From contig CAIVGN010000181.1 of the NCBI GenBank assembly GCA_903905455.1, forward strand, positions 1-35,959: DNA of 35,959 bases, in the 5' to 3' direction. Positions within the stretch are counted from its first letter, which is position 1, and each line of letters opens with the position of its first letter. A program made the translations under genes and the position numbers. The notes beneath the pieces were generated by a model that saw nothing but the letters and a program-made list of their open reading frames with translations, did not search any database and was not told the DNA's origin. This DNA comes from an uncultured Archangium sp. GTDB lineage: Bacteria; Myxococcota; Myxococcia; Myxococcales; Myxococcaceae. Positions 1-27,151 of the stretch are shown here, in pieces.

Positions 1-178
1 CGACCGTTCCTGAACATTGAGGCCTTGCCCCATTCGACTCTGCGCCTCGTCTAGCCCGCGCGGCAGATGAGCGCACCCCTCGCCCCGGGGGGCGAGGATG
101 GGAGTGGGGCGACCCTGGGCACCCAAACAAAGACACGACCGCTGCCGATCGCAGGAGACGCAAGCCCTCCATCGAAGC
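1..178 (+). repeat. Right half of a ~540-bp palindromic repeat element (copy A, cut by window edge)
   Basis: These bases match the right arms of the elements at 6850-7028 and 12735-12912 almost base for base, in the same orientation. The match ends at the shared terminal bases ATCGAAGC (171-178). The internal hairpin at 78-97 (CCTCGCCCC, two-base loop, GGGGCGAGG) is present. The left arm and core should lie just upstream of the window. No protein-coding gene is supported here; the short open frames recur in every copy only because the DNA is repeated. Confidence 0.85.
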
Positions 179-2119: not shown

Positions 2120-3226
2120 ATGGAATTCCGGATCGCGGCAGATGAGCTGAAGAAGGCGCTGCACCGTGCGCAGGGCATCGTCGAGCGCAAGGCGACCATG
2201 CCGATCCTCTCGAACGTGCTCGTCAACGCGACGAAGACGGGCGTGACGGTCACCGCCTTCGACCTCGACATCGGCATCGTCAGCGAGCACCCGGCCGAGG
2301 TGATGAAGCCCGGCGCGGTGACGGTCTCGGCCAAGACGCTCTTCGACATCGTCAGCCTGATCCCCGATGCGAACCTGACCATCAAGAAGCTGCCGAACAA
2401 CTACGCGGAGATCACCTCCGGCGCGGCGCACTACAAGATCGTCGGCATGGCCCCGGAGGAGTTCCCCAAGCTCCCCAAGGAAGACGCCACGCACCTGGTG
2501 AAGCTCACCGGCTCGACCATCCTCGAGATGATCAAGAAGACCCAGTACGCCATCTCGAACGACGAGACGCGCTACATCCTCAACGGCGTCTTCTTCGAGC
2601 CCCGCGAGGGCCACAAGGTGCGCATGGTCGCCACCGACGGCCACCGCCTGGCGCTCGTGGAGCGCGAGATGGCGGGGGACTTCAAGCTCAAGAGCGGGGT
2701 CATCATCCCGCGCAAGGGCCTGTTCGAGCTCAAGCGCCTGCTCGACGAGGCGCCCGACGCCGAGTGCCAGCTGGGCTTCGCGGAGAACTCGGCGCTGTTC
2801 AAGAAGCCGGGCCTCTCCATGGTCATGCGGCTCATCGACGGCCAGTTCCCCGAGTACCAGCGCGTCATCCCCAAGGAAGGGGAGAAGCAGGTGATGATCA
2901 AGCGCGCGACGTTCTTCGACGCGCTCAAGCGCATCTCGCTGCTGTCGGCTGACAAGTCGAGCGCGGTGAAGCTCTCGCTGTCCGAGAACCTGCTGCGCAT
3001 CACCGCGAACAACCCGGAGCTCGGCGAGGCGAAGGACGACATCGAGGTCGCCTACCGCGGCCCGTCGCTCACCATCGGCTTCAACGCCCGCTACATCCTC
3101 GACGTGCTCGGCGCGCTCGAGACCGACGAGGTCACCCTCGAGCTGGGCGACGAGCACAGCCCCGGCGTGCTCCACGCACCCGGCGACAAGGAATACACCG
3201 CCGTCGTCATGCCCATGCGCGTCTGA
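2120..3226 (+). CDS. dnaN: DNA polymerase III beta subunit (sliding clamp)
   Basis: 368 residues, the normal clamp length (E. coli 366). Two copies form a ring of six similar domains that encircles DNA and tethers polymerase III and other enzymes. It begins MEFRIAADEL, followed by the conserved ERKATMPILSNVL segment. FDLDIGI, the THLVKL region and RYILNGV lie in domains 1 and 2. The C-terminus YTAVVMPMRV matches the canonical ending near the partner-binding pocket. I chose the ATG at 2120 because clamps start at this Met; an in-frame TTG at 2081 with a good ribosome site would add 13 residues that do not look like clamp sequence. The usual neighbours dnaA, recF and gyrB are absent from the window. 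Confidence 0.97.
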   Translation: MEFRIAADELKKALHRAQGIVERKATMPILSNVLVNATKTGVTVTAFDLDIGIVSEHPAEVMKPGAVTVSAKTLFDIVSLIPDANLTIKKLPNNYAEITSGAAHYKIVGMAPEEFPKLPKEDATHLVKLTGSTILEMIKKTQYAISNDETRYILNGVFFEPREGHKVRMVATDGHRLALVEREMAGDFKLKSGVIIPRKGLFELKRLLDEAPDAECQLGFAENSALFKKPGLSMVMRLIDGQFPEYQRVIPKEGEKQVMIKRATFFDALKRISLLSADKSSAVKLSLSENLLRITANNPELGEAKDDIEVAYRGPSLTIGFNARYILDVLGALETDEVTLELGDEHSPGVLHAPGDKEYTAVVMPMRV

Positions 3227-3248: not shown

Positions 3249-4226
3249 ATGAAACCACCCGGGAGTCGTCAGCGGGCCGTGCGTTTTCTCCCCCTCGTCG
3301 CAGTGCTCGTCGCGTCCGGTGCGTCCTTCGCGCAGGACGAGGGCGTCTCTCCACCCCCCATGGTGCCGGCTGATCAGCCCGTCGACCCGGGGGCCGGCGC
3401 ACAGCCGCAGTACCAACAGTACCCGCCGCAACAGCAGCCCTCGCAGCAGCCGCAGTACCAGCAGCAGCCGCAGTACCAGCAGCAGCCGCAGTACCAGCAG
3501 CAGCCGCAATACCAGCAGCAGCCGCAATACCAGCAGCAGCCGCAGTACCAGCAGTACCCGCAACAACAGCAGCCCTCGCAATACCCCCAGCAGCCGCAGT
3601 ACCAGCAGTACCCGCAGCAGCAGCAGGCCCCGCAGCAGCCCCGGCAAGCGCCGCCCGCCGAGGTGAAGGAAGGCCTGATGGGCTCGACGCGGACCAAGCA
3701 CTTCGTGGGGCTGCTCTCGGGCGCGTTCGGCATCGCCAACGCCACGCCCGGGGTGGTCGTCAACGCGCGCCTCGAGGCCGACATCGGGCGCATCGGGCTG
3801 CTCTTCGGCTACACGAACTTCTTGTCGTCGGTGGACGCGTTCGCCTTCAGCAACATCCAGGTGCACCAGTTCAACCTGATGGGGGGCTATTCGTTCTTCT
3901 CGAGTGACGCGCTGACCTGGCGGGTGCTCGGCGGCGTCGACGTGATGATGCGCGAGGGGACCACGGCGGTCGGCCCCATCATCGGCACCAACCTGCGCTC
4001 GATGTGGGGGCCCGTGGGGCTCGACGGCGCGTTCATGGTGACGCTGTACCCGTTCCGTCAGCTCGAGTTCCGCGCGGCCTTCGTGTTGCGCTTGAGCATC
4101 TTCGAGCTGCACGTCGGCTGGCGGGTGCAGGTGGTCGACGCCACGCAGTCGGGCTCGCTGGGCACGTTGTTCACCACCAGCCCCACGGTGAACGGGCCGG
4201 TCGCGGGCGTGGGCCTCACCTTCTGA
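3249..4226 (+). CDS. Secreted Gln/Tyr/Pro-rich repeat protein with outer-membrane-type C-terminal domain
   Basis: 325 residues, function unknown. Residues 1-28 are a signal peptide (basic start, hydrophobic LPLVAVLVASGASFA, cleavage before QDEG). About 50-135 is a low-complexity linker of PQYQQQ units and variants. The last ~185 residues have alternating hydrophobic/polar strands rich in Gly and aromatics (LLFGYTNFL, FNLMGGYSFF, FELHVGWRVQV) and end in a Phe (VGLTF), which is the usual terminal residue of outer-membrane beta-barrels. I infer a barrel domain at the outer membrane with a flexible periplasmic or surface linker. It follows dnaN by 22 bases, but no functional link is evident. The repeat tract may vary in length between strains. 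Confidence 0.8.
   Translation: MKPPGSRQRAVRFLPLVAVLVASGASFAQDEGVSPPPMVPADQPVDPGAGAQPQYQQYPPQQQPSQQPQYQQQPQYQQQPQYQQQPQYQQQPQYQQQPQYQQYPQQQQPSQYPQQPQYQQYPQQQQAPQQPRQAPPAEVKEGLMGSTRTKHFVGLLSGAFGIANATPGVVVNARLEADIGRIGLLFGYTNFLSSVDAFAFSNIQVHQFNLMGGYSFFSSDALTWRVLGGVDVMMREGTTAVGPIIGTNLRSMWGPVGLDGAFMVTLYPFRQLEFRAAFVLRLSIFELHVGWRVQVVDATQSGSLGTLFTTSPTVNGPVAGVGLTF
3450..3557 (+). repeat. 18-bp tandem repeat coding PQYQQQ
   Basis: Five in-frame 18-bp units encoding PQYQQQ, then a sixth reading PQYQQY, inside the 3249-4226 gene. Units differ by one or two silent changes (CAG/CAA, CCG). Related, less regular units continue to about 3650. Copy number could change by slippage without breaking the frame. 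Confidence 0.85.
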
Positions 4227-5748: not shown

Positions 5749-6471
5749 ATGAAGAAGCTCGCGCTCGCGGTGGGGTTGATCAGCGCCGGGTGTCCGAAGT
5801 CGCCGGCCGAGGCGCCGGCGCCGCCGCCCTCGCTGGTGGCCACGGCCAAGCGCGCGCTCGCCGAGCGGGAACGGCGGCTGACGTCGTTCAAGCTGGTGGT
5901 CGACTCGACCGAGGGGGAACAGCGGGCGCACCACGAGTTCGCCTTCAAGAGCCCCAACAAGAGCCGGGGCCACATGACGGTGCCGCAGGAGGTGGAGCTG
6001 GCGTTCGATGGGGCGCGGTTGGTGCGGGTGCTGTACCCGGCGAAGGTGGTGGAGGTGGTGCCGCTCGACTTGCCGCCGGCGCAGCGCGCGTACTTCCTGG
6101 CGTCGACGTTCATGCCGTTCGCGCCGGAGGGGTACCGGGCACCGCTGTTGCCGCTCTCGGGGGTGGAGGCGAAGCAGGTGTCGCGGCCCGACGCTGCCGA
6201 GGCGGTGGAGCTCACGGTGCGGCCCGGAGACGGGGTGACGGTGCGCTACGTGTTGCGGCTGCCGTCAGGAGATTTCCTGGAGAAGCGCACGGTGGCGGAG
6301 GGCAAGGAGCGGGTGCTGAAGGTGCTCGAGGAGCACTGCGAGGCGGCGCTCGGGGTGTGCGTGCCGACGAAGCTGGTGGAGACGATGGGGGAGGTGGTGC
6401 TGGGGACCACCTCGGTCAGCGACGTGGAGTTGAACCCCGCGTTGCCGCAGGAGTTCTTTTCGCCGAGGTGA
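5749..6471 (+). CDS. Lipoprotein with possible LolA/LolB-like fold
   Basis: 240 residues. MKKLALAVGLISAGC carries a likely lipobox (Cys15), followed by an Ala/Pro linker (PAEAPAPPP). The rest is a single domain of alternating strands: SFKLVVDSTEG, HHEFAFKSPNKSRGHM, VELAFDGARLVRVLYPAKVVEVV. This resembles the lipoprotein-sorting (LolA-like) beta-sheet fold, where an early helix is followed by strands with short turns. The assignment rests on pattern, not on a clear motif. AAGGGG lies eight bases before the ATG. The terminator upstream suggests its own promoter, but I found no convincing one in the ~78-base gap. The 3' end is 15 bases from the palindromic repeat. Confidence 0.8.
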   Translation: MKKLALAVGLISAGCPKSPAEAPAPPPSLVATAKRALAERERRLTSFKLVVDSTEGEQRAHHEFAFKSPNKSRGHMTVPQEVELAFDGARLVRVLYPAKVVEVVPLDLPPAQRAYFLASTFMPFAPEGYRAPLLPLSGVEAKQVSRPDAAEAVELTVRPGDGVTVRYVLRLPSGDFLEKRTVAEGKERVLKVLEEHCEAALGVCVPTKLVETMGEVVLGTTSVSDVELNPALPQEFFSPR

Positions 6472-6485
6472 CGGGGGGCGGGGAG

Positions 6486-7028
6486 GCTTCGAGGAGGGGT
6501 TTGCGTCTCCTGCGATCGGCAGAGGTCGTTTCTGTGTTTGGGTGCCGGGGTTCGCCCCTATCCCTTCCTTTCCCCCCGGGGAAAGCGGACCGCTCGGCCG
6601 CGGGGGCCAGACGGGATGCAGAGTCGAATGGGGCAAGGCCTCGATTCGCAGGACCGCTCGCAGCGCTGGACACCCACGCTTCTTCTCGATGGTCTTGGCA
6701 TGCGCCGGATCCACCGCCCAGGCAGCAACATCTGACTTCCTACAGTGGCTGCCGAAGGGCAGCACCTGCTGCTTCAGGATGCTGCTGCTTCAGCGCCCCG
6801 CGTCGCCGTCGACGAAAACCGTCGAGGACCTACGGTGGATCAACCCCCACCGACCGTTCCTGAACATTGAGGCCTTGCCCCATTCGACTCTGAATCCCGT
6901 CTAGCCCGCGCGGCAGATGAGCGCACCCCTCGCCCCGGGGGGCGAGGATGGGAGTGGGGCGACCCTGGGCACCCAAACAAACACACGACCTCTGCCGATC
7001 GCAGGAGACGAAGACCTCCCATCGAAGC
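6486..7028 (+). repeat. ~540-bp palindromic repeat element (copy B, complete)
   Basis: The left arm (6486-6660) is an imperfect inverted copy of the right arm (6850-7028). The outer ends read GCTTCGA and TCGAAGC. The ~190-bp core (6661-6849) is close to that of copy C. Inside the left arm, CTTTCCCC/GGGGAAAG (6568-6585) forms a hairpin; inside the right arm the matching hairpin is CCTCGCCCC/GGGGCGAGG. The core holds a GCTGCC-GAA-GGGCAGC hairpin. No transposase and no convincing coding frame is present, and no target duplication is visible. It fills the gap between the 3' ends of two convergent genes. Confidence 0.88.
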
Positions 7029-7046: not shown

Positions 7047-7637
7047 CTACAACTCGAACCGCTGCAACCGTGCGCCCACCTTCACACCCTTGCGCAGGTT
7101 GCGACCCGAGCACGTGACGAACGCCTCGTGCCGGCACGCATTGACCAACACCACGTCACACGAGAGCTCTTCCGCGTCACTGGTCGCGTCCAACGCCGCC
7201 CGGGCGAGGCACTTCGCATACTCCCGCGCGTGCACCCGACGCCAGTCGGCGATCTCCTTCACATGCTCCTCTTGAGACTCATGCCCCTCGAGCGGCTCCT
7301 GCGGGTCACACTCCGCCAGCCGCGGCTCGTAGGCCATCCACCGCCACACCCGCAGCGGCGCCGCCTGCCCCTCGAGCACCAGCGAGCGCGCCTCGAGCCG
7401 CGTGCCCGAACTCCCGTCGTCGCCTTCGGTCATCGGGCAGAGCTTCGCGGGCTGCGCACAGCCCGTCTCCGGCACCGCCGCCACCTCCACGCACCCCGTC
7501 AGCGCGCGGGCATCCTTCGCGGTGAGCTGTGGCTGCTTCTTCTTCGCCCACGCCGCCACCGCCTGCTGCCGCACCGCCGCGTCATCCGACGCGAGCGGGT
7601 GCTGGGTGAGCACCAGCAGCAGCAGGCCCTCAAACAT
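7047..7637 (-). CDS. Secreted Cys-containing protein of unknown function
   Basis: 196 residues. The short hydrophobic start MFEGLLLLVLTQHPLA looks like a signal peptide with a weak N-region. The mature part has about eight Cys residues (GCVEV, GCAQP, LCPM, ECDP, KCLA, SCDV, NACR, TCSG), which suggests disulphides and an exported location. No known domain is recognised. Its ATG shares one base with the stop codon of the Cys-rich lipoprotein upstream (TGATG), so translation of the two is probably coupled and they may act together. The 3' end lies 18 bases from palindromic repeat B. Confidence 0.75.
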   Translation of the reverse strand: MFEGLLLLVLTQHPLASDDAAVRQQAVAAWAKKKQPQLTAKDARALTGCVEVAAVPETGCAQPAKLCPMTEGDDGSSGTRLEARSLVLEGQAAPLRVWRWMAYEPRLAECDPQEPLEGHESQEEHVKEIADWRRVHAREYAKCLARAALDATSDAEELSCDVVLVNACRHEAFVTCSGRNLRKGVKVGARLQRFEL

Positions 7638-12371: not shown

Positions 12372-12912
12372 GCTGCGGTGGGAGGTTTGCGTCTCCTGCG
12401 ATCGGCACAGGTTGTTTCGTCGTTTGGGTGCATGGCTTCGCCCCACTCCCTTCCTCTCCCCGCCCGGGGAGAGGGGAGCGCTCGCCGCGCGGGCCAGACG
12501 GGATTCAGAGTCGAATGGGGCAAGGCCTCAATGTGCAGGACCGCTCGCAGCGCAGGACACCCACGCTTCTTCTCGATGGTCTTGGCATGCGCCTGATCAA
12601 CCGCCCAGGCAGCAACATCTGACTTCCCGCAGTTGCTGCCGAAGGGCAGCAGCAGCCGTTGGATGCTGCTGCTTCAGCGCCCCGCGTCGCCACTCACGAA
12701 AACCGTCGAGGGCCGACGGTGGATGAACCCCTACCGACCGTTCCTGAAAATTGAGGCCTTGCCCCATTCGACTCTGCGCCTCGTCTAGCCCGCGCGGCAG
12801 ATGAGCGCACCCCTCGCCCCGGGGGGCGAGGATGGGAGTGGGGCGACCCTGGGCACCCAAACACAGAGACGAGCTCTGCCGATCGCAGGAGACGAAAACC
12901 GCCCATCGAAGC
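12372..12912 (+). repeat. ~540-bp palindromic repeat element (copy C, complete)
   Basis: Same organisation and orientation as copy B. The left arm is 12372-12547, the core 12548-12734 and the right arm 12735-12912. The left-arm hairpin is CCTCTCCCC/GGGGAGAGG (12453-12474), with a different but compensated base pair from the hairpins in copy B and in the right arms. The core differs from that of B at scattered positions, with a longer CAG-rich stretch after the central hairpin. It sits between divergent genes, 43 bases before one start and 66 before the other. Confidence 0.88.
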
Positions 12913-21354: not shown

Positions 21355-24300
21355 ATGGGCGCTGGTTTGCGTTTGAAGTCCGGGGCGTTGGTCGCATTTT
21401 CTTTGGTTGTCTTGTCTTGTCAGGCCCAGGCGGCGCCGGTGAGCGCCTTCCGGCTCAGCGGGGTGCCCACGCAGGCCGTCGCCGGAGCGCCCGTGACGTT
21501 CACCGTCTCGGCGCTCGACGCGACCGGGGCGCTGGTCGCCGACTACGCAGGCACTGCGCTGATCACCAGCAGTGACCTCGCCGCCGCCGTGCCCGTGCCC
21601 GCGGTCTTTTCATCGGGCGTGGCGGCAGGCCTCACCCTCACCTTCAACACCGCCGGCACCCAGTCGGTGACGGCCACCGACGCGCTGCTGACCGGCGTGA
21701 GCGCGAGCGCGTCGGTCACCGTCGCCCTGCCCCCCAGTTCCACCATCACCGCGCCGGTGAACGTGAGCGCCGGAGCCAACGCGACGGCCACGGTGCCCAG
21801 CCAGGCCGGCGTCACCTACGCCTGGAGCGTCCAGAACGGCGTCGTCACTGCCGGTGGCACCGCGCGCTCGATGACCTTCACCGCCGGCGCCTCCGGGGCC
21901 GTGCTGCTGTCGTGCCAGGTCACGCGCACCGTCGGGGGCGCCAGCAGCACGGGCACCCGTTCGGTGAACATCGCCGCGGTGCCCACGGCCCCCGCGGTCA
22001 CCGCGCCGGCCCTCGTCACCACCGCCGTCGCGGGCAACACCGCCAGCGTCGCCGCCACCGTCGGCATGACCTATTCGTGGACCATCGTCGGCGGCACCAT
22101 CAGCGGCTCGAAGCTGGGGGTGATCAGCGGCGGTCGCAACACCGTCACCTTCACCGCGGGCGTGGTGGGCACCCTCACCTTGAGCGCCGTGGAGATCAAC
22201 GTCGCGGCCCTCAAGAGCGCCGCCGCGAGCGCCACCACGCAGGTCATCGCCGCGCCGGTCAAGCCGAGCGCCATCACCTCCACCACGCCGGTCACCGCCG
22301 GCAGCAGCGGGCTCACGGCGAGCGTCACCGCGCGCGCCGGCGCCACGTACCTGTGGACCCTCGCCGGCGGGACCTTCACCAACGCCCACGGCGACGCGGG
22401 CGAGCTGGCGGGCACCACCAACTCCGTCACCTTCACCGCGGGCGCCGCGGGCACGCTGGTGCTCACGGTCAAGGAAGTGAACCTCGCGGGCACGAAGAGC
22501 GCCGCGCTCTCGAAGAGCCTCACGGTGAAGGCCGCGCCGCTCCCGCCCACCATCACCGCGGCCAGCCCGGTGAACGCCGGACAGACGGGCCGCACCGCGC
22601 AGGTCACGGCCCGCACCGGCTTCACCTACCTGTGGACCATCGCCAACGGCACCCTCACCTCGACCGGCGGCACCGCGGGCGTCACCGCCACGGGAACGAA
22701 CACCGTCACCTATACCGCCGGAGCCGTGGGCCCGGTCACGCTGACCTGCGTCGAGCGCAACGGCGTGGTGGGCCCCAACGGCAGCAGCGCGCCGGCCACC
22801 GCCAGCATCACGGTGAACCCCGCGGGCAGCCCGGTGATGCCGGTCATCACCGCGACGAGCCCGGTCTCCGAAGGGCAGTCGGGCCGCACCGCCTCCGTCG
22901 TGGCGCTGACGGGCATGAGCTACCTGTGGACCATCGCCAACGGCGCCGTCACCTCGGCCAACGGCCTGGCCGGCGTCACTGCCACGGGCCGGAACACCAT
23001 CACCTATACGGCGGGCGTCGCGGGCAGCACTGACTTCACCTGCGTCGAGAGCAACGGCGTCGCGACCAGCCTCCCGGCCACGAAGTCGGTGACGGTGGCG
23101 GCCACGCCGACGCGGCCCAGCCTCGTGACCACCACGCCCCTCGAGGCCGGCGCCAGCAGCAGCGCACAGGTCACCGCCAACACCGGCATGCACTACCTGT
23201 GGGGGGCGACCAACGCGACGCTCACCAGCGCGGGAGGCACCTCCGGAGTCACCAGCGGGGCGAGCAACAGCGTCACCTTCACCGCGGGCACGGTGGGCAC
23301 CCTGGGCCTGACCTGCGCGGAGCTCAACGCCGCCAACGTGCAGGGCCCCACGGCCTCGGCCTCGGTGCAGGTCATCTCTGCGCCGCCGGTCACCCCCACC
23401 ATCAGCGTCCAGGCCACCGTGGCCCTGGGCACGTCGGCGACGGCCTCGGTCGTGGCGCGGCCGAGCATGACGTACGCGTGGACCCTCACCAACGGGACCT
23501 TCACCAACGTGGGCGGCGCGGCCGGCGTCGTCAGCGGGTCGACCAACTCCGTCACCTTCAGGCCGGTGGCCGAGGGGGCCCTGGTGCTCACCTGCGTGGA
23601 GACCAACACCGACGCGGTGAACTCGGGCGCGGCGACGGCCACGCTGACGGCGACGCCCGCGGGCACCGGCGGCATCGTGGCCATGCCCCGGCTCGGCCTG
23701 GGCCGGCCCATCTTCGGCACCAACACCCCTTCGCTGCTCAATGACGGGGCGTACCGCGCCTCCTACGCGTGGACGGCCCCGAAGGGCGCGTGGGCGGCCC
23801 TCGACCTGGGCGCCGGGCCTTCCCAGCTCTACGTGCAGATCTCCAACGAAGACTCGGCGACCGGCGACCTGAACGGCGGAGGCATGGCGGCCTTCCACTG
23901 GCTGACGAGCGCGGACTCGACCAACGGCCAGGACGGTACGTGGACCACCGTGGCTACCATCACCGCCAACCCGTACATCACCCGCGCGAGCCTGCTGCCC
24001 TTCAGCGGCCAGCGCTGGCTCAAGCTGGTGATGGACTCGGCCTCGACCCTCGATGAGATCGACGCGTGGGACGCGAGCGGCGGCGTCACCGACGCCTGGA
24101 TGTTCATCGGCGACAGCATCACCAACCGCGCCACCAAGCGTGGCAGCCAGTCGGGCGTGGGCAACCAGCCCTCGTTCCAGGCCAACCTGCAGACGGCGAA
24201 GGGCCAGTACCCGGCGCAGGGTGGTGGCGGCATCGTGGGCGCCGGCGCGGCCGACGTGCGCGCCAACATCGACGCCTGGCTCGCGGCGTTCCCCCACGCG

Positions 24301-24660
24301 AAGTACTGGGCGGTGAGCCTCGGCACCAACGACGCCTACGCCGGCGCGGCGGGCCTGCCGCAGTGGATGGGCGACATGCAGTACATCATCGACCACCTCA
24401 AGGCGGCCGGCCGCGTGCCGGTGCTGGCGCGCATCCCGTACACCACCGACCGCTACTACGGCTTCCCGAGCGGCACGGCGCTGTACAACACGTCGGGCAT
24501 CGACGTGCTGGTGGCCACCAACAACCTGCGCCCCGGGCCGGACCTGTACACGTGGTTCCAGGGGCACACCGCGGAGCTCGAAGACGGCGTGCACCCCACC
24601 GAGACCGGTTGCATCTCGTGGAACCGGCTGTGGGCCGACGCCGTGCTGCCGATGTACTGA
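21355..24660 (+). CDS. Exported multi-Ig-repeat protein with C-terminal SGNH/GDSL hydrolase domain
   Basis: 1101 residues from the ATG at 21355 (AAGGGG upstream; an in-frame TTG at 21331 is less likely). Signal peptide about 1-27; cleavage after AQA, or lipidation at Cys23, is possible. An Ig-like domain (28-125) is followed by seven ~90-residue PKD/Ig-like repeats (about 128-769), each with a YLWTIANG-like strand and an NTVTFTAG-like strand, and often a LTCVE strand. A discoidin-like beta-domain (about 775-915) comes next. The SGNH hydrolase domain ends the protein: GDSI with Ser921, GTND with Asn992, and DGVHPT with Asp1077 and His1080. All catalytic positions are present, so it is likely an active esterase or acetylhydrolase on carbohydrate, outside the cell. 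Substrate unknown. Confidence 0.92.
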   Translation: MGAGLRLKSGALVAFSLVVLSCQAQAAPVSAFRLSGVPTQAVAGAPVTFTVSALDATGALVADYAGTALITSSDLAAAVPVPAVFSSGVAAGLTLTFNTAGTQSVTATDALLTGVSASASVTVALPPSSTITAPVNVSAGANATATVPSQAGVTYAWSVQNGVVTAGGTARSMTFTAGASGAVLLSCQVTRTVGGASSTGTRSVNIAAVPTAPAVTAPALVTTAVAGNTASVAATVGMTYSWTIVGGTISGSKLGVISGGRNTVTFTAGVVGTLTLSAVEINVAALKSAAASATTQVIAAPVKPSAITSTTPVTAGSSGLTASVTARAGATYLWTLAGGTFTNAHGDAGELAGTTNSVTFTAGAAGTLVLTVKEVNLAGTKSAALSKSLTVKAAPLPPTITAASPVNAGQTGRTAQVTARTGFTYLWTIANGTLTSTGGTAGVTATGTNTVTYTAGAVGPVTLTCVERNGVVGPNGSSAPATASITVNPAGSPVMPVITATSPVSEGQSGRTASVVALTGMSYLWTIANGAVTSANGLAGVTATGRNTITYTAGVAGSTDFTCVESNGVATSLPATKSVTVAATPTRPSLVTTTPLEAGASSSAQVTANTGMHYLWGATNATLTSAGGTSGVTSGASNSVTFTAGTVGTLGLTCAELNAANVQGPTASASVQVISAPPVTPTISVQATVALGTSATASVVARPSMTYAWTLTNGTFTNVGGAAGVVSGSTNSVTFRPVAEGALVLTCVETNTDAVNSGAATATLTATPAGTGGIVAMPRLGLGRPIFGTNTPSLLNDGAYRASYAWTAPKGAWAALDLGAGPSQLYVQISNEDSATGDLNGGGMAAFHWLTSADSTNGQDGTWTTVATITANPYITRASLLPFSGQRWLKLVMDSASTLDEIDAWDASGGVTDAWMFIGDSITNRATKRGSQSGVGNQPSFQANLQTAKGQYPAQGGGGIVGAGAADVRANIDAWLAAFPHAKYWAVSLGTNDAYAGAAGLPQWMGDMQYIIDHLKAAGRVPVLARIPYTTDRYYGFPSGTALYNTSGIDVLVATNNLRPGPDLYTWFQGHTAELEDGVHPTETGCISWNRLWADAVLPMY

Positions 24661-26314: not shown

Positions 26315-26595
26315 GGGGGGCGGCTCGCGGCGCGATTGAAGAGAGCACGCACGTCCGTCATTGACCGGCGCGGACGCCCGACGAGCCGCGGTGACGACGG
26401 CGCAGCCGATTTGGCCGAGCCCGTCGAGCGCGCCGACCCCTTGCGCTGCTCGAGACGCGACGCGGGCGTGGTGGGTGCGGCGCTCAGCCACCTCGCGGCG
26501 TTGAACAGCAGCCTGAAGGGTGGCGGTCATTCGCGAAGCGTCGGCCGTGCACATCGCGTGCGGGCCCCTCGAAGACGCGACGTCTCGATTCAGCA

Positions 26596-26646
26596 ACAGT
26601 GACGGACTTTCAGCGCACGGGGGCAGCACCAGAAATCCGTCACTGT
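26596..26646 (+). repeat. Hairpin in tandem unit 1
   Basis: ACAGTGACGGA (26596-26606) pairs with TCCGTCACTGT (26636-26646), a perfect 11-bp stem. Partial pairing continues into the loop. Compared with unit 2, the fourth base pair is changed from C-G to G-C on both sides. Confidence 0.75.
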
Positions 26647-26908
26647 GAATCGCACGAGACGAAGCCTGCACGGGTTCGTCAGCGGCACGCTCGAGCCGAG
26701 GGGCTGATCAACCCAGGCACGGCGCAAGGTCTCCACGTCACCCTCGCTCCCCCAGGGCCTTCGCCGTCACGCACGCGCAGTCGAACCGCGAGGGCATCTC
26801 CGACGTGCGGCGGTGAACAGCAGCATGTGGGGTGGCGGTCGTTCGCGGAGCGTCGGCCGTGCGCATCGCATGCGAGCCCCTCGAAGGCGTGGCGTCTCGA
26901 TTGAATCG

Positions 26909-26958
26909 ACACTGACGGACTCCGTGGGGGTGCGCACCACCACCGAGTCCGTCAGTGT
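26909..26958 (+). repeat. Near-perfect 50-bp palindrome in tandem unit 2
   Basis: ACACTGACGGACTC (26909-26922) pairs with GAGTCCGTCAGTGT (26945-26958). The palindrome continues to the centre at TGCGCA, giving 25-base arms with only two mismatches. It may form an RNA hairpin or a DNA cruciform, or serve as a binding site for a dimeric protein. Confidence 0.8.
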
Positions 26959-27151
26959 GCAGGGCCCGGGACGAAGCCTGTACTTGCGAGTCACCGGAAC
27001 GCTCGTGCCGAGGGGCTGCCCAATCCGGGCACGGCGCAGGGCCCCCACGCCCCCTCGCTCCCCAGTGCTTTGGCCGCTCCCCGCACCGACCCACGTGCAG
27101 TCGCACCGCGCGGGGACATCCGCGGTGCAGCGGTGAACAGCAGCAGGAAGG

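Follow-up and report, generated by a model that had tools for sequence, protein, structure and literature searches.

The window analysed here, 35,959 nucleotides long, comprises the entire contig C181 of the 8.6-Mb, 251-contig genome of an uncultured Archangium sp. and contains two full copies of a palindromic element together with the right half of a third one (Table 1). The latter is incomplete because the window is a whole contig, the end of which cuts the element. All three copies had been predicted at these positions from the sequence. The inverted arms, expected at ~175 bp, are 175-178 bp long with a mutual complementarity of 80-86% in the window copies, and the core between them, expected at ~190 bp, spans ~187-190 bp; the stem variants CTTTCCCC/GGGGAAAG, CTCTCCCC/GGGGAGAG and CTCGCCCC/GGGGCGAG are located in the arms to which they had been assigned. 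The gene ahead of the first copy (5749..6471) has orthologues with 68-71% identity in three same-genus species, where the element is missing. Other repeats in the window include ~280 bp tandem repeats (22100-23600) inside a long open frame (21439-24660) that probably encodes a repetitive surface protein, a 9-bp periodic low-complexity repeat within an open frame (3366-3694), and a repeat pair, 312 bp apart and 78-88% alike (26495-27054).

Table 1. Copies of the palindromic element in the window, their parts and the genes adjacent to the first copy.
Feature	Position	Strand	Remarks
Flanking gene	5749..6471	+	stop codon 14 bp ahead of the first copy
First full copy	6486..7028	+	543 bp
Left (L-type) arm, first copy	6486..6660	+	
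Triplex motif, left arm, first copy	6555..6586	-	third-strand complement CCCCTATCC, CTT (spacer), CCTTTCCCC (stem), CC (loop), GGGGAAAGC (stem)
Core, first copy	6661..6850	.	non-coding, modest structure
Right (R-type) arm, first copy	6851..7028	-	
Triplex motif, right arm, first copy	6928..6959	+	CCTCGCCCC GG GGGGCGAGG ATG GGAGTGGGG
Flanking gene	7047..7637	-	oriented towards the first copy, its stop codon 18 bp off
Second full copy	12372..12912	+	541 bp; sits between divergently read genes
Triplex motif, left arm, second copy	12441..12474	-	CCCCACTCC CTT CCTCTCCCC GCCC GGGGAGAGG
Triplex motif, right arm, second copy	12812..12843	+	
Third copy, right half only	1..178	-	severed by the contig end
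Triplex motif, half copy	78..109	+	

The genome search that had been suggested for the first copy revealed far more copies than those in the window. Altogether, 57 element ends, called at no more than two mismatches to the 17-mer of the element end, correspond to ~28 copies, a number well above anything chance would give; 18 of the element places are at contig ends, in keeping with the breaking of assemblies at repeats. Identity to the reference copy is 81-91% in the near-full copies, and three shortened ones, C30 (139 bp), C79 (126 bp) and C127 (about 110 bp), retain the two outer ends alone. The 21 placed copies all lie clear of the genes predicted by a rough, purpose-made gene caller. At the one occupied site that was compared (C29), the element is inserted where sister species have none: the genes on either side are syntenic in the same-genus genomes G003 and G004, where the element is absent and the aligned blocks are separated by about 100 and 58 bp, respectively, the junction being not base-exact because the spacer has diverged. 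The equivalent site in G005 is occupied by a different insertion of ~790 bp (L213, reverse complement, about 2221-3010) with two open frames that, by eye, we take to resemble a putative toxin-antitoxin pair with a PIN-domain toxin. Searches of five same-genus genomes, the remainder of the class, plasmids and phages gave DNA matches of no more than about 60 nt, and the family therefore appears to have spread within this lineage. A scan of other genomes and viral contigs with the 17-mer end gave isolated single matches, and no plasmid or phage carrier of the element was found.

The family displays several features of MITEs, namely terminal inverted repeats, lack of coding, many interspersed copies and an empty site in relatives; target-site duplication, also a MITE trait, was found in none of 17 copies in any of the fixed geometries up to 25 nt. 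The left and right flanks of the copies pair no better than shuffled flanks, so that insertion into hairpin targets was rejected. An open frame is present in the core of most copies, but its third codon positions vary least and it matches no Pfam or NCBIfam family over the cut-off, which rules out a coding core. A search for an autonomous relative was negative, as every end with 0-1 mismatch to the 17-mer was assigned to a known copy, in an assembly that is broken at 18 copies and the gaps of which could hide such a relative. Bacterial MITEs such as Correia/NEMIS, ERIC and RUP (PMC2229807) are likewise non-autonomous, non-coding and intergenic, with terminal inverted repeats, many copies and strong folding potential; in contrast to these, the present element is three to five times longer, G+C-rich, without TA ends and without target-site duplication, and no partner transposase was found. 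The element is a species-restricted, interspersed, non-autonomous MITE-like repeat that consists of two inverted ~175-bp units and a non-coding core. The large non-autonomous mobile palindrome of the original prediction is borne out by the ~28 dispersed intergenic copies, the syntenic empty sites, and the lack of both coding capacity and a transposase.

A structured unit present in inverted pairs, its extragenic location and the missing target-site duplication would also be compatible with a REPIN-like element moved by a RAYT (Y1 tyrosine transposase). REPINs/BIMEs with their RAYTs and the CGTC-tagged REPs (PMC3116915, PMC3733652) similarly form inverted palindromic-unit pairs that are extragenic and mostly located 3' of genes, and the CGTC-tagged REPs are likewise without a known transposase (PMC3116915, PMC3733652). 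However, the unit of the present family is ~175 bp long compared to 20-40 bp, the GTAG tag is absent from the conserved arm columns, and Y1_Tnp has no match in the genome, whereas control genomes gave matches, so that mobilization of this kind is most improbable.

Relative to dinucleotide shuffles, folding of the complete element reaches z = -19.8; single arms fold like shuffles (z 0.1 and 0.5), and folding of the core is modestly above them (z -2.7 and -1.7). In 3 or 4 of the 12-13 copies compared, arm-to-arm pairing is interrupted at the corresponding columns, and the arms within one copy (84.2% identity) are no more alike than arms from different copies (83.9%). Therefore, the constrained unit is the single arm and not the long palindrome, and arm-to-arm pairing was rejected as the conserved feature. 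Within the arm, a local hairpin is under constraint: among 46 aligned arms, three pairs (columns 86/102, 87/101 and 109/125) change on both sides, with 21 double-change cells and 0 broken cells, and slid controls yield none. The double changes that keep pairing, from which a constraint on structure had been postulated, are accordingly present in the local hairpin, whereas for the large palindrome no pairing constraint was found. The hairpin covariation goes back to few ancestral changes, roughly three, since the CTCT and CTCG stem types probably share one change; the change at 109/125 is restricted to L-type arms. The three right arms of the window all have the CTCG stem, as originally recognized, but this does not extend to the genome as a whole, in which CTTT is the commonest form and CTCG occurs in 5 of the 49 stem-bearing arms.

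The predicted hairpin is real but incomplete, in that an adjoining pyrimidine tract completes a sequence fitting the intrastrand-triplex motif known as PIT/BoxC/TMECO. On the G-rich strand, the motif of the window reads CCTTTCCCC-GG-GGGGAAAGG-AAG-GGATTGGGG, that is, a C-stem, a loop, a G-stem, 3 nt and a third strand. When scored as antiparallel purine-motif triads with reverse-Hoogsteen pairing (G.GC, A.AT and T.AT), 98.1% of the triads over 53 arms are canonical at a spacer of 3, compared to 16-73% at other spacers from 0 to 12. On this basis, the arms fall within the motif class, the definition of which includes a purine-rich third strand and allows one mismatched triad at most. The sequence is triplex-capable and covaries in three strands: changes involving all of them occur at position 4 (G.GC to A.AT), position 5 (T.AT or A.AT to G.GC) and position 6 (T.AT to G.GC), and a stem change is mostly accompanied by a change of the third strand, as in the left arm of the second copy where both have changed together. 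Not following this rule are the five CTCG arms, three of them in the window, where T with C-G breaks the homopurine stem and, in the right arm of the first copy, is the one non-canonical triad; two arms that have C with A-T; and two more arms with a single odd triad each. In a shuffling test of the 8 distinct haplotypes that ignores their relatedness, exchanged third strands reach the observed fit at p about 0.004, and few independent ancestral changes, about three, are behind the triad covariation.

The compensated stem changes could, in principle, be mutational, produced by template switching within the hairpin and without any selection. Template switching is a known mutational mechanism for quasi-palindromes, and the CTCG type has changed two adjacent pairs together, as one switch could. 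However, such a switch restores stem complementarity without being able to determine the third strand, a sequence that obeys the triad code although it is not complementary and not an exact mirror copy; strict mirror identity is only 82% versus 98% for the triad code, and therefore the third strand fits the triad code better than plain mirror symmetry. We consider this explanation very unlikely.

The arm motif and PIT/BoxC/TMECO have in common a 9-nt C-rich stem, a short loop, a G-rich stem, a 3-nt second loop and a third G-rich strand (PMC4666352). Both are intergenic, form inverted pairs, undergo deletions at the palindromic pairs and are without an associated mobility gene (PMC4666352); five inverted pairs of the motif are present in E. 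coli MG1655 (PMC4666352). The differences are in the stem, which here is CCTTTCCCC, CCTCTCCCC or CCTCGCCCC and not CCCTCNCCC, the loop, which here is usually 2 nt long, the third strand, with T.AT at up to two positions, and the context, namely both arms of a 540-bp repeat with defined ends. The arms do not match the TMECO consensus 5'-CCCTCNCCC N3-6 GGGNGAGGG N3 GGGNGAGGG, the stem sequences being different, and, judging by sequence, the arm motif belongs to the same class as TMECO but is not TMECO itself. Intrastrand-triplex motifs are widespread in bacteria; their origin is open and no function has been demonstrated for them, including in E. coli (PMC4666352).

The arm and centre deletions within the family coincide with this motif. 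In 8 of 8 deletions that affect an arm or the centre, a breakpoint lies in the motif (element coordinates 70-102 on the left and 443-474 on the right) or at most 5 bp from it; these are the single-arm deletions of C34, C238, C171, C186 and C107 and those of the minimal copies C30, C79 and C127, for which the alignments are partly ambiguous. This does not apply to the truncated copy C12, to the truncated far ends of C107 and C238, or to one core deletion that C34 and C171 have in common. Deletions at palindromic pairs of the intrastrand-triplex motif have been reported in E. coli (PMC4666352).

With a covariance model built on the outer 129 nt of the element, diverged relatives were identified in G018, a genome from another genus of the same family, in the form of 313-bp non-palindromic elements. 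It was the comparison of their hairpin, CCTTCTCCC-TCGA-GGGAGAAGG, with that of the window that pointed to the adjoining tract, and they keep the triplex motif with two further compensated positions. These repeats share with the palindromic element a homologous arm, the triplex motif, a second hairpin and the placement after stop codons, all three copies with an assembled start beginning about a dozen bases past a stop codon. They differ in that they are not palindromic, are present in few copies and have another right end, which is also found alone at two more places (L243 and L245). The G018 family might be composed of separate modules in the manner of a mosaic.

Many of the features described so far would be expected of an ordinary MITE of a cut-and-paste IS, the parent of which was lost, with the hairpins being incidental and the paired changes representing inherited blocks or gene conversion. 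Terminal inverted repeats, a non-coding core and interspersed copies are typical of such an element, and the internal-deletion derivatives with both ends (C30, C79 and C127) as well as chimeric arms, for example the left arm of C29, are readily accommodated. Nevertheless, the triad code is kept across two genera, not one of the 17 copies has a target-site duplication in the fixed geometries tested, and there are no surplus ends assignable to an autonomous copy; we consider this origin unlikely.

With the gene caller mentioned above, a stop codon is faced by 37 of the 57 ends (median distance 18 bp) and a start codon by 20 (median 74 bp), whereas from background spacers about half of the ends would be expected to face a stop if spacers are counted, and a third if they are weighted by length; therefore, the element is in excess 3' of genes, as are REPs (PMC3733652). 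This excess would be explained if the arms acted as RNA, that is, as 3' UTR hairpins that end transcription or protect the mRNA, bidirectionally by virtue of the inverted arms. The starts of the G018 copies close to stop codons are in line with such a role, and so are the three terminator-like matches in the first copy, compared to 0.4 in shuffles. However, the purging of promoter-harming insertions would produce an excess 3' of genes as well, and element-free convergent spacers are short too (median 8.5 bp). The start-facing ends and the location of some copies between divergent genes (e.g., 12372-12912) also argue against an RNA role, as do the RNA folding of the arms, no better than that of shuffles, and the lack of an Rfam match. 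In viral contigs, the wider motif shows no bias of orientation with respect to genes and their stop codons, and in E. coli it has no strand bias (PMC4666352). Finally, the third strand covaries by a DNA triplex code, which Watson-Crick pairing of RNA does not predict, and the structured RNA that was the second option of the original prediction is for all these reasons not favoured; a function of the arms as RNA is, in our assessment, improbable.

The best explanation, which we estimate to be correct with a probability of roughly 0.6, is that the element is a deletion-prone, MITE-like palindrome of two inverted triplex-bearing units in which the folded DNA, and not an RNA, is conserved. In single-stranded or strongly supercoiled DNA, each arm would fold locally into a compact triplex such that, after the hairpin and exactly 3 nt, the third G-rich strand enters the groove by reverse-Hoogsteen triads. 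The conserved entity would then be the folded DNA of the arm, neither an RNA nor the long arm-to-arm palindrome. This fold might be the shape recognized by a mobilising enzyme that acts in trans or, alternatively, a polymerase-stalling structure, and it would render the site deletion-prone, giving rise to shortened copies. Presumably, the triplex exists in vivo and is the target of selection, and a role of the triplex in transposition or polymerase arrest can be envisaged. Much more tentatively, a natural DNA triplex, backed by the three-strand covariation inside the repeat family and across genera, might be the conserved working part of the mobile palindrome, for example, a single-strand fold that is recognized during movement. 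The co-change of three strands, if true, would be rare natural evidence of DNA triplexes mattering, and a repeat family with a co-changing third strand offers an evolutionary test of their importance. Given that the motif is tied to a dispersed element with defined ends, empty sites and deletion hot spots, its spread, instability and folding become jointly testable.

Motifs of the same general type are also found outside the family. In public viral contigs, A or T is opposite A in 267 of the 272 cells of CCCTCTCCC..GGGAGAGGG sites with a third strand, these sites having been selected on G positions only; the first pattern scan preset part of the third strand, so that its site count is biased and the bases at A positions are unaffected. 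Stems interrupted by C (CCCTCGCCC) are without a third strand in 55 sites of the viral contigs. For the stem CCTTCTCCC, a third strand accompanies only 6 of 382 sites, and in each of the six A or T is found at the extra A. One of the viral contigs that carry the triplex motif (L282) additionally contains two matches to the Acido-Lenti-1 RNA (3638-3834). In G004, a generic triplex motif (CCCCTCTCCCCGACCCTCTCCCCCCTGGGGGGAGAGGG; L197, 2230-2285) lies immediately downstream of the orthologue of the flanking gene 5749..6471, and three generic triplex-type hairpins are present on the 5.2-kb contig L234 from this genome.
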